From NCBI RefSeq assembly GCF_018304765.1, contig NZ_CP072642.1, positions 293,501 to 357,500 of the forward strand: a DNA stretch of 64,000 nucleotides. Direction: 5' to 3'. Under the pieces are notes generated by a model. That model made no database searches and was not told the origin of the DNA. It saw only the letters and a list, made by a program, of their open reading frames with translations. The DNA is from Chloracidobacterium sp. N. Its GTDB lineage: Bacteria; Acidobacteriota; Blastocatellia; Chloracidobacteriales; Chloracidobacteriaceae. This document shows, one piece after another, positions 34,972 through 38,938 of this stretch. How positions within the stretch are numbered: position 1 is the first letter of the stretch; every line of letters starts with the position of its first letter. The translations under genes were made by a program, and so were the position numbers.

Positions 34972-35164
34972 ACACTCTTGTAATCCTTGCGCAATAAACA
35001 GTTACGACTGGAACTAATGGCGTGGCGTCAATACCGTAGCGCAACGCCCGGTGTGTTGCACAGTCATTTTGTCACCGTAGCCAGCGGGCCAAGTCTGATT
35101 TGCACGATGCCCGTCGGGCCATGCACAGGTGCGTCCACGATTCGATGCCAGCCGGCGAAATGCA

Positions 35165-35920
35165 CTAACAGTACACCGAGACGCCGGCCGGAATCGGCGC
35201 AAAGTCTTCCCCGCTACACGGCTGGAAGCCGTCCGGCCAGCGAGCGTGCATCCGACACAAGACACGATTCTGTAAGGGGGCATCGTGGTTCACGCGCGCG
35301 ACACACAGCTTGATGAATTCGGTGTCGCACTGTTTCACAAGCTGCCGAATGTCATGCGCCAGGTAGCGCGGCACGAAGCCAATCTGCATTGGCTCGTTCC
35401 CGGTGCGGACAGCCACGGCATGTCGGTCATACTCATTCTGAAGGTCGAGCATGATCTTCAGCGGTTCCTCCGGGGCCAGTCGGGCAATTCGTTCGAGGGC
35501 TGCCGGGGGCATCCAGTGAACGCCATGCAGGAAAAACTTGTTCAGGTAACAGCCGTCCGCGTCGGGGACGGGGCAGGGAAACACCTCAACCGCATCCGTC
35601 CGGCGAAGTCCCTCCGTCACTCCCAGGATCACGAGGGGGTCAGGTGGGCTGTCCGTGTCGAAGCCGCTCCAGCGCAGGTAGGCTTCATACTCCGGCCGGG
35701 CCTTCGACAGCAGCCGGTTGGCAAAAAGCGGAAACAGCTCATCTGATTCGTAAATCTGGTTCAGGTTCGTCATTCCCGCGAACGGTTGAAACCCTGGCTT
35801 CCGTGCGCCTTGCAGGTAACAGAAGCGGTAGAGTCCGCCATCGTGTTCCAGCCGGCCGACGGGCCGCCAGCCGGTTTGATCGGGCATAGGCGGACGCCAG
35901 GCGACAAAAAGGGAGTTCAT
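35165..35920 (-). CDS. HIRAN domain protein with HipA-N-like region, partner of the adjacent kinase
   Basis: 251 residues from the ATG at 35920. The N-terminal half (about 1-95) resembles the N-terminal part of HipA proteins (VGRLEHDGGLYRFCYLQGA, LFANRLLSKARPEYEAYLRW). The C-terminal half (about 125-205) carries a HIRAN-like domain: NKFFLHGVHW, LDLQNEYDRHAVAV, IGFVPRYLAHDI. HIRAN domains bind DNA ends or damaged sites in nucleases and helicases. The ATG overlaps the kinase stop (ATGA at 35917-35920), so translation is probably coupled. It looks like a split HipA system in which the kinase and its N-terminal module are separate chains. Whether it acts as toxin-antitoxin or defence is unknown. 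Confidence 0.75.
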   Translation of the reverse strand: MNSLFVAWRPPMPDQTGWRPVGRLEHDGGLYRFCYLQGARKPGFQPFAGMTNLNQIYESDELFPLFANRLLSKARPEYEAYLRWSGFDTDSPPDPLVILGVTEGLRRTDAVEVFPCPVPDADGCYLNKFFLHGVHWMPPAALERIARLAPEEPLKIMLDLQNEYDRHAVAVRTGNEPMQIGFVPRYLAHDIRQLVKQCDTEFIKLCVARVNHDAPLQNRVLCRMHARWPDGFQPCSGEDFAPIPAGVSVYC

Positions 35921-36843
35921 TGCCGTTTGTCCTGTTCCAGCAGCCGACGTTGGTTCGTCAGCAACAATTCCAGCGTGAAATTCCTGCACGTTTCGGACAT
36001 GCGCGCCGGCGGCACGCTTTCCAGAATACCCCGGATTCCCTCCCGGTTCACCGTCCGCAGCCGCTCCTGCCACGCACGCGCCGCATCTGGAGCATAGGCA
36101 GCGAAGGCCCGGAATGCCTCACGCAACTCCAACGGCTTGTTGCTGGCGGGTGAACTGTAGAAGGCACTCCGCCCCCGGGCCGCAAATGTCGCAATCGTCC
36201 GGTTCCGATCCTTGCTCGTCAGCCGTTCTTCCCGCTCTTCGTCAAGGAGATTCCTTGCCAGTGCTGCGCCGTGATCAAAGGTCGGGGCCAGCCGCAACGT
36301 GCTGCCATCCCGGAGCGCTCCCCAGTTTTCGTGATGCCGATCCTGGTTTGCAATCCAGGCATCCAGCAGGACATATCCGACGAAAACATCCAGGGCCGAT
36401 TCAATACCGGGGGGAACATGCGTCATCCAATCCTCAGATGGAGGGCTTAGCTGTGCAACGATGTCGCATACTGCTTCGACTGTGTGTTGCCGGACCTTGA
36501 ACCGCTGTGCTTGGGGATACTGCGGATCGGCCGCCAGCAACAGTTCGTTGCCCAGCACCAGCACGAAGGGCTTGTGGGTCATGTTCTCGCAGACCACGCC
36601 GGGACGAATGTACTGCTCGCCGTCGTACTCGGCCGCCAGTTCGTATTTGACGTGGGGCAGGCCCAGCAAACCACACAGGTGACAGGCGACAACTTCGGCC
36701 CAGTCCTCGCCGGTTCCCCGGTCTTCCGCCTTGAACAGCAGCCGCCGGTTGCCGTCGCTAAACCAGAACTTCGGCTTGCTGCCCAGTGGTTCGACGGATT
36801 GCGAAAGCGAGCGGTCAACCCGGCGTATGGAAAACTCGCCCAT
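35917..36843 (-). CDS. HipA-like Ser/Thr kinase
   Basis: 308 residues. Kinase landmarks are readable: ATP lysine in LLFKAED (K38), Glu50 in the next helix, catalytic loop ANQDRHHENWG (D168, N173) and metal-binding APTFDHG (D190). This corresponds to the HipA-like C-terminal kinase domain, without the HipA N-terminal lobe, which appears as the separate downstream gene. HipA kinases phosphorylate translation factors or tRNA synthetases; the target here is unknown. The gene sits next to the IscB element, separated by 111 bases. Confidence 0.8.
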   Translation of the reverse strand: MGEFSIRRVDRSLSQSVEPLGSKPKFWFSDGNRRLLFKAEDRGTGEDWAEVVACHLCGLLGLPHVKYELAAEYDGEQYIRPGVVCENMTHKPFVLVLGNELLLAADPQYPQAQRFKVRQHTVEAVCDIVAQLSPPSEDWMTHVPPGIESALDVFVGYVLLDAWIANQDRHHENWGALRDGSTLRLAPTFDHGAALARNLLDEEREERLTSKDRNRTIATFAARGRSAFYSSPASNKPLELREAFRAFAAYAPDAARAWQERLRTVNREGIRGILESVPPARMSETCRNFTLELLLTNQRRLLEQDKRQ

Positions 36844-36939
36844 GCGTTCATTCTACCGGCTGCGTACCCACGAGCATCACTTCCACATCCGTCTTGGCTG
36901 TCCTGGCGCGGGACTGGACTGGGCCTCAGCCCTGAGTCA

Positions 36940-36964
36940 CGCAATTTCACTCATCTAAATTGCG
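36940..36964. repeat. Palindrome over the iscB stop codon
   Basis: CGCAATTT (36940-36947) pairs with AAATTGCG (36957-36964) around a 9-base loop that includes the iscB stop codon. It may be the element's right-end structure or a terminator. Confidence 0.55.
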
Positions 36965-38370
36965 CGGGAGACTCCGCCCTGAAGGGCGGAGAGGGATAGC
37001 GCGGCTCCTGTTCCCGCTTCTTCTTTCACCAAAGCTGTCCTGCTCCACGCATACCCATAACCGTCGGCACGTTGCATCAAGGCACAGAACCGGTGATGAA
37101 TCCCTTGCACCAGACCGTTTTTGGTCTGGAGATTGAAACTGCCGCTGGCGCGAATGGCAACCCGACCAACATACGTGCCCACCTTCCTGCCAGTCGTCAC
37201 CACCGCCCGCACCATGTCGCCCGTCTGAAATCCGAAGTGGCGTTTGCTGCGGGTCAGGTATCCGCGTGGGAAGCCATGCCGGTTGAGCCGTGTGCGCTGG
37301 TAGCTGCCGCGTCCGGCGCACTGGATGCCAAGGGTCGGCACGCTCCAGCCACGCACGGCGGCGACATCCCCCACGCAAACGGCATCGAGAGCGTGCGTTT
37401 TCGGAATACCGAACCGCAAGCGATTGAATTTCGTCCGGCCGCCAGTACCCACCTCAACCGGAAGACCCGTTTCCTTCAGCGCCGCGTAAAGCGCCCAGCG
37501 GGTGCTGTTGACCGCTGACGCATCACGCAGCGGGGATAGGGCCTGCGCTTCAATGCGCGCCAATCGCTGCGGGTCACGGGCCAGGAACTCCGCCACATCG
37601 CGGTTGCCCTTCTTCTGGTTGCAGGTTCGGCAAGCGATCACAAGATTGCTCACCCGATGACTGCCGCCTTTTGAGCGCGGATGGATATGGTCAATCTCCA
37701 ACGGCACATCCTGCGTGTCACAGTAGGCGCACTTACGCTTCCACTTCTCCAGCAGGTATTCGCGTACCTCGTATGTACGGGCGGCTTCGGAAGCCGCCCC
37801 TACCGATACCGTCCGCACCCGAATTTCGGGATGTTGCATCGCCTGCATATCAAAGCGCGCCAGTTCCTGCGAGATTGCGGTCACAGGTGTCCAGCGGCAA
37901 AGCCGATTGACCCAGGAAAGCGTTGTTTCCACCCGATGGCGCAGCGATGGGGCAAGCCATCCTTCAGGCTTCCGACGATTGGCGAACCGACAGGCGCGAT
38001 GGCGCAGGTTGGCGCTTCGGCGTCTTCGCCGAAACGCCCGGCGGGCCGTCATCGCATCCCGGATCGCGTGGCCCCGGTGGGACAACTCCGCAAGAAACAC
38101 CACATGCGCGGCTTGGCGCACTTCGCCCGTTTCGGCGTCAACCTCTTCGCTTTCCCGAACCAGCGCCAGGCCCGTGGTCCTGCTTCCCGGGTCGATCTTG
38201 ATCCGCACAGGTTGCACGACGGACGCTTCCACCGTCCGATCAACCAGACGGATCGTGAATGGCACGAGCCGATGTACCCGCGCGCGTCCGCGCTCAAGCA
38301 ACAGCCGGGCCCGTTTTTCGGAACACGGCATCAGCGGCCGCTTCCGCTTGTCCAGGACAAACACTGCCAA
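36955..38370 (-). CDS. iscB: IscB RNA-guided nuclease (RuvC + HNH)
   Basis: 471 residues from a TTG start at 38370, set by the family N-terminus AVFVLDKRKRPLMP and by AGGAGG at 38384-38379, eight bases upstream. Domains in order: PLMP domain; RuvC-I with Asp60 (KIDPGSRTTGLAL); arginine-rich bridge helix (about 108-133, RRAFRRRRRSANLRHR); RuvC-II Glu169 (ISQELARF); HNH domain with C214/C217/C247/C250 zinc ligands and D227-H228...N242 (EIDHIHPRSKGG); RuvC-III with His326 and Asp329 (HALDAV). All catalytic residues are present, so it should cut both DNA strands guided by an omegaRNA, as known for IscB, the Cas9 ancestor family. The last residues (SALQGGVSRAI) are encoded by the right-end hairpin. 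Confidence 0.93.
   Translation of the reverse strand: MAVFVLDKRKRPLMPCSEKRARLLLERGRARVHRLVPFTIRLVDRTVEASVVQPVRIKIDPGSRTTGLALVRESEEVDAETGEVRQAAHVVFLAELSHRGHAIRDAMTARRAFRRRRRSANLRHRACRFANRRKPEGWLAPSLRHRVETTLSWVNRLCRWTPVTAISQELARFDMQAMQHPEIRVRTVSVGAASEAARTYEVREYLLEKWKRKCAYCDTQDVPLEIDHIHPRSKGGSHRVSNLVIACRTCNQKKGNRDVAEFLARDPQRLARIEAQALSPLRDASAVNSTRWALYAALKETGLPVEVGTGGRTKFNRLRFGIPKTHALDAVCVGDVAAVRGWSVPTLGIQCAGRGSYQRTRLNRHGFPRGYLTRSKRHFGFQTGDMVRAVVTTGRKVGTYVGRVAIRASGSFNLQTKNGLVQGIHHRFCALMQRADGYGYAWSRTALVKEEAGTGAALSLSALQGGVSRAI
36972..36991. repeat. Right-end hairpin of the IscB element
   Basis: CTCCGCCCT-GA-AGGGCGGAG forms a 9-bp stem. The same stem sequence occurs at the left end (38660-38679), as expected for paired element ends. 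It lies inside the iscB 3' coding end. Confidence 0.75.
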
Positions 38371-38703
38371 GTCTGACGCCTCCTGTAACGGTCCCTTACG
38401 GGACTTGTGACGTGAGCCTTGCGGCCCATCTCCCCTCGGAAATGTCTGCAACCGGCTCCTTCCTTGCGGAAGCGATGAGAACCTTCGGCGCTTTACCTTT
38501 CACCAGCATGATCCCCACCTTCCAGTGTCCGGGACTGAGGAAGCATCCCGGAGTGGGTCTTGACGACCTGTTGCCAACGTAGCGGGTTGGATACCGCTTT
38601 TCCTGGTCAACCCGGCTTGCTCCCAAAACTCCGGCCTTTGGGCCGGGGTAGTGAACAAGCTCCGCCCTTCAGGGCGGGGTAGTTGACCGGCGTTTGTGAT
38701 GAC
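38371..38703 (-). ncRNA. omegaRNA (HEARO) scaffold upstream of iscB, with putative 5' guide
   Basis: The 330 bases before iscB on its strand are not convincingly coding. They contain the conserved omegaRNA core (TTCCTCAGTCCCGGACACTGG, close to the TTTCCCCAGTCCCCGGAACT core of known IscB omegaRNAs) around 38519-38539, stem-loops at the left end, and run into the iscB ribosome-binding site as in the HEARO family. In IscB systems the 5' part of the RNA is the guide, from DNA just outside the element; that would be about 38688-38703. Exact ends are estimates. Confidence 0.75.
38629..38679. repeat. Two tandem left-end hairpins of the IscB element
   Basis: CTCCGGCC-TTT-GGGCCGGGG (38629-38648) and CTCCGCCCT-TC-AGGGCGGGG (38660-38679) are two related stem-loops 31 bases apart, each followed by TAGT(T)GAAC/TAGTTGAC. 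The outer one matches the right-end hairpin. Confidence 0.75.
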
Positions 38704-38938
38704 ACCGACCGGCGTCGGCACTTTGAACCACTCAGACAGCTTCACAAAGGGCGAAGCATCCTTCGGCGGGGCGTGCCGTGTTCGCTGACCCGCCGCTGGC
38801 AAGGAAGTTCAGACAGAAAAAAGAAAGGTGGTTTTCTTGCGGCTGTTCCCTGTGGCTTACGGGCGCGGCAGCGCCGGAAGGGAAGCATGAACGACACCCC
38901 CAGGTCTGTTCCAAAGACCCGCCCCCTGTGGACGGCCA
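38704..38938. other. Non-coding flank between the IscB element and the LysW-like gene
   Basis: About 235 bases with no supported gene. Short ORFs on both strands have no protein-like composition. A small AAGAAA/TTTCTT hairpin lies near 38822-38840. The minus-strand ORF from 38802 runs into the omegaRNA region and is considered spurious. Confidence 0.35.

Follow-up and report, generated by a model that had tools for sequence, protein, structure and literature searches.

Two overlapping reverse-strand genes in the window, a 64,000-nucleotide stretch of the Chloracidobacterium sp. N genome, are virtually certain to be a copy of hipIN, the pair described in 2021 by Gerdes, Baerentsen and Brodersen in mBio as the kinase HipI and its putative antitoxin HipN, a HipS-like plus HIRAN protein (PMC8262856). 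The match is far beyond chance: both proteins satisfy, over their full length, the PADLOC profiles of phage-defence candidate PDC-M03 (PDC-M03A for HipI, 1.5e-104; PDC-M03B for HipN, 1.1e-84), and the two genes are paired in 148 of 148 related loci. We read hipIN as a phage-defence module of two genes resembling a type II toxin-antitoxin pair, in which HipN would restrain HipI until its HIRAN domain meets DNA ends, and put the probability of this reading as a whole at roughly 0.55. Computation shows the folds, the gene overlap, conservation at active-site and HIRAN positions, constant pairing, a loss that strikes hipI selectively, and prophage and defence contexts; from these we infer inhibition by HipN, triggering by DNA ends, a target for the kinase and a role in defence by abortive infection. 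HipN is very probably an antitoxin and phage defence is the likely main role; for DNA ends as the trigger the odds are about even.

The hipI stop and hipN start share four bases, ATGA, at 35917-35920, as inspection of the open reading frames shows. A listed 302-aa frame from a GTG at 36073 is merely an upstream extension of hipN. Pfam placed HIRAN above its cut-off in HipN (1.5e-9, residues 145-220), with HipA_C in HipI (6.7e-6) and Couple_hipA in HipN (0.27) below the curated cut-offs of those families. These weak matches were settled by AlphaFold (AF2) models and Foldseek searches. The HipI model (pLDDT 96.3) matched CtkA (3akk, 4.7e-13), HipA (3dnt, 2.7e-7) and HipT (8ezr_B, 3.9e-7), and is a HipA-fold core kinase lacking N-subdomain 1, with every kinase motif present. 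In the HipN model (pLDDT 94.3) the HipS-like part matched HipS(Lp) (8ezr_A, 2e-4, 24% identity) and E. coli HipS (7ab3_E, 2.3e-3), and the HIRAN part matched the HIRAN domain of HLTF (4xzg, 2.3e-5; DNA-bound form 4s0n, 5.9e-5), making HIRAN recognizable by both sequence and fold. The downstream neighbour of the kinase thus combines the HipS-like and HIRAN domains that define HipN.

Conservation was counted on 64 HipI and 67 HipN relatives (Table 1); the AlphaFold models, too, were built from 64-67 relatives. The Gly-rich loop of HipI varies at position 20 (L/M/Q/V/T), and in the sequence alignment no serine stands where HipA Ser150 aligns. In HipN, A168, G181 and P184 are invariant (67/67). 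The HIRAN domain of HLTF binds 3' DNA ends via a surface that includes N90 and N91, and the N90A-N91A mutation disrupts its function (PMC11237066). On sequence inspection, N162..D165 of HipN are taken to correspond to N91..D94 of HLTF; the N91 equivalent, N162, is kept in 65/67 relatives, and the N90 equivalent, Q161, is variable, which counts against the favoured reading. An earlier note on this DNA had proposed a HipA-like kinase with intact ATP-binding and catalytic residues, overlapping by four bases a partner made of HipA-N-like and HIRAN regions. The Pfam, PADLOC and structural matches and the conserved residues (K38, D168, N173 and D190 in all 64 HipI relatives) show this domain reading to be right.

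Table 1. Features of the hipIN pair and its surroundings, in window coordinates.
Feature	Position	Strand	Basis or conservation
Strain-specific insertion with hipIN and iscB, 3.9 kb	34975..38892	.	same-genus comparison
hipI, HipA-family kinase without HipA N-subdomain 1, 308 aa	35917..36843	−	PADLOC, AF2, Foldseek
HipI Gly-rich loop L20-G-S-K-P-K25	36769..36786	−	G21, K23, K25 64/64
HipI K38, predicted ATP-binding lysine	36730..36732	−	64/64
HipI catalytic motif D168-R-H-H-E-N173	36325..36342	−	D168, R169, H170, N173, W174 64/64
HipI D190, predicted Mg-binding aspartate	36274..36276	−	64/64
hipN, HipS-like plus HIRAN protein, 251 aa, start ATG 35920	35165..35920	−	PADLOC PDC-M03B, AF2
HipN residues ~1-110, HipS-like (HipA N-subdomain-1-like) domain	35591..35920	−	Foldseek, Couple_hipA 0.27
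HipN residues ~111-228, HIRAN domain	35237..35590	−	Pfam 1.5e-9, Foldseek
HipN HIRAN motif N162-E-Y-D165	35426..35437	−	N162 65/67, D165 64/67
IscB gene (element spans 36951-38687)	36955-38451	−	
HEARO RNA	38424-38687		1.4e-20

The survey of pairing and neighbours that the earlier note had suggested drew on 68 viral contigs and the best 80 of 450 confirmed genome loci; these 148 are best-scoring relatives rather than a random sample. In every locus hipN lies directly after hipI, and defence-type settings, the P2 hotspot of prophages and type I restriction-modification (RM) operons, recur around the pair. Among 107 non-redundant hipI-hipN junctions 88 overlap, 65 of them by exactly 4 nt. HipI and HipN distances co-vary closely in a mirror-tree comparison (r 0.91, against a maximum of 0.11 in 1000 permutations), a correlation to which shared ancestry contributes. 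Disruption is one-sided: eight loci have a broken hipI, none a broken hipN (p = 0.010), even though searching with hipI biases the survey against broken copies of that gene. Misassembly of MAGs may explain some of the breaks. Two further broken hipI genes turned up in a planctomycete sample and may overlap the first eight. Constant pairing, together with loss of hipI but not of hipN, is what would be predicted for a toxin and its antitoxin. Programmed frameshifting in the broken hipI genes was ruled out, the break positions differing between loci, and a 573-aa open frame (genome G158) that had looked like a fusion of HipI with HipN proved to be two ORFs.

Two single loci are of separate note. 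On an Oscillatoria plasmid (L004, 5008-6738) a transposase-like ORF replaces hipI and precedes an intact hipN. In genome G018, which has no hipI match, a solo hipN (L007, 1489-2229; 45% identical) lies divergent from a mutL-like gene; it is either an antitoxin left orphaned or a HipS-HIRAN protein put to use with no kinase. That a HipN-like protein can be retained where the kinase is missing tells against the favoured reading.

HipS blocks the ATP site of HipT and thereby neutralizes the kinase (PMC10627512, PMC9325769). By analogy, the HipS-like domain of HipN would dock on HipI where the N-subdomain sits in HipA, keeping the Gly-rich loop inactive. The inhibitory contact would have to differ from that of E. 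coli HipS, since the Glu63 and Trp65 of the latter have no evident counterpart in HipN by sequence inspection. The HIRAN domain would bind free 3' DNA ends, of which phage replication intermediates or restricted and degraded DNA might supply a surplus; this binding would loosen HipN from HipI, and the freed kinase would stop growth and abort the infection. Much of this was anticipated: sensing of phage DNA ends by HIRAN, leading to abortive infection, has already been suggested for hipIN (PMC8262856), and HIRAN and HipA genes have been counted among predicted defence genes and noted next to those of diDNases (PMC11706625). The earlier note's proposal, a DNA-sensing kinase system of two components acting in stress control or phage defence, was thus already in print as a hypothesis; it fits the HipS-like domain, the HIRAN motif, the obligate pairing and the genomic contexts. 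In the literature searched we found no experimental test of hipIN, PDC-M03 or HIRAN in phage defence.

The case for defence is correlative, and comes from where hipIN sits. The pair is present in 51 of 5426 E. coli genomes, in two lineages. In the first, each of the four copies inspected occupies the gpA-gpQ interval of a P2-like prophage, a published P2 defence hotspot (PMC9122126), one of them adjoining SIR2 and an ATPase. Similarly, the P2 portal gene lies within 1.5 kb downstream of hipIN in 33 of the 68 viral contigs, 29 of which also have gpA upstream; five more contigs have a P2-type integrase nearby, and in a Clostridioides phage hipIN adjoins an integrase. Elsewhere, in PM2-like (Vinavirales) Vibrio prophages, the pair adjoins an integrase (L002, 11590-13304). 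The second E. coli lineage (30 genomes, 67% identical DNA; L228, 8976-10635) was inspected in one copy; the surrounding island also contains cdiA/cdiB-like genes and IS remnants, together with a KAP P-loop NTPase and a Gp2 gene of inovirus type. We conclude that hipIN is widespread and probably an anti-phage module.

The same mobility would suit an addiction module, kept by prophages, plasmids and islands for their own stability, in which HIRAN serves only to localize or autoregulate the DNA-bound complex rather than to sense phage. Carriage on plasmids and prophages and the intact antitoxin beside broken toxins are as such a module would have them, and, since the window pair shows no HTH protein, the DNA binding could come from HIRAN. 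Addiction does not, however, specifically predict placement in a defence hotspot and in RM operons, and conservation of the HIRAN motif across phyla also speaks against it; we consider it unlikely.

In the window the pair sits among housekeeping genes, which, like the lack of an HSDR_N match in this genome, counts against the favoured reading; it lies in a gap between a 3-hydroxyacyl-CoA dehydrogenase gene and a small gene preceding accA. This gap is an insertion spot: it measures about 45-75 bp in five same-genus genomes and holds an IS607-type tnpA/tnpB in a sixth (G001). hipN is absent from all six, and the nearest homologues of the window pair are planctomycetal (77% and 78%), so recent horizontal acquisition is, on these comparisons, the most likely origin. 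The earlier note had placed the pair next to an IscB element; the position is true, the neighbour coincidental. The flanks of the 148 relatives hold no IscB apart from a weak 59-aa HNH-region match in L185, and the second replicon carries, without hipIN, a copy 98.7% identical to 36951-38497 (G000:C2:311833-313379); these findings rule out a functional link and make IscB an independent element; a 74% related copy lies at C1:2185616.

Such a distribution sits poorly with a DNA-damage checkpoint, in which HipI would impose dormancy (persistence) once HIRAN senses stalled forks or broken host DNA, phage defence being a by-product. The function of HIRAN in HLTF (PMC11237066), the solo hipN beside mutL in L007 and the activation of the anticodon nuclease RloC by DNA breaks (PMC3874168) are in keeping with a checkpoint, but hipIN is sporadic and moves horizontally, being found in none of the six same-genus genomes, about 8 of 294 planctomycete species and the small E. 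coli fraction given above, and its settings are prophages and RM operons. A checkpoint is therefore, in our estimate, quite unlikely.

The RM setting is the second defence context. The order hsdS-hipI-hipN-hsdR, with tight or overlapping junctions, occurs in 11 genome loci; the hsdS/hsdR-nested copies (L117, L118, L124, L128, L130, L136 and others) come from planctomycetes and from MAGs labelled Limisphaerales, Acetothermia, Bacteroidales and Chromatiaceae. Variant layouts are hsdM-hipI-hipN-hsdS in Thiocystis and hsdR-hsdS-hipI-hipN-hsdM on a Rhodococcus plasmid, and in eight more loci a type I RM gene lies on one flank only. The clade of the window copy (support 0.985) has 37 hipIN loci, 19 of them inside or beside type I RM operons. 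We found no earlier report of such recurrent nesting in the literature searched. That hipIN is the retaliation arm of type I RM, silent while the RM complex is intact and released by restriction-made ends or by anti-restriction proteins, in the manner of PrrC, which always accompanies type Ic RM and is activated by an anti-restriction peptide, would account for the 11 tight loci and the two variant layouts, but is very improbable given that most relatives lack a detectable linked type I RM system, the genome of the window has no HSDR_N match and the inspected prophage copies adjoin no type I RM genes.

A further, unlikely reading is that through hipIN type I restriction is coupled to abortive infection: the HIRAN domain of HipN might read either the ends made by the type I enzyme or by phage replication, or the disappearance of an RM complex that had kept the pair silent, and so unleash HipI. 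The pair would then be a kinase counterpart of PrrC, later freed from RM in prophage and window-like copies. If DNA ends do control the kinase, hipIN would act as a toxin switch that senses DNA ends directly, and would functionally link restriction to kinase-driven abortive infection. The survey supplies natural E. coli copies in P2 prophages, testable in K-12.

As to known systems, the earlier note's statement that the arrangement has no standard name does not hold, for it is hipIN (PMC8262856) and PADLOC PDC-M03. With hipIN as published the window pair shares the core kinase without N-subdomain 1 followed by HipN with its HipS-like and HIRAN domains, and differs in nothing essential; the present analysis adds the RM-nested and P2-hotspot settings, the asymmetry of hipI loss and the structure models. 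PDC-M03, matched full-length by both components, is itself a catalogue entry only, and its name drew no match in the literature searched. HipBST of E. coli O127 and Legionella likewise has a split HipA, with the kinase apart from its HipS inhibitor domain, but includes the HTH protein HipB and has the order B-S-T, whereas the window pair has no hipB or other HTH gene, puts the kinase gene first and fuses HIRAN to the HipS-like domain. HipBA has the kinase fold and motifs of HipI; it differs in its HTH antitoxin, HipB, in carrying N-subdomain 1 in the kinase chain rather than in the partner, and in Ser150. CtkA, an H. pylori kinase, is the closest solved kinase fold and best sequence match to HipI; we know of no HIRAN partner for it. 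PrrC and RloC resemble hipIN in being growth-stopping effectors, PrrC tied to type I RM and RloC responding to DNA breaks, but they are unrelated in protein and chemistry, and the likeness is one of layout and logic.
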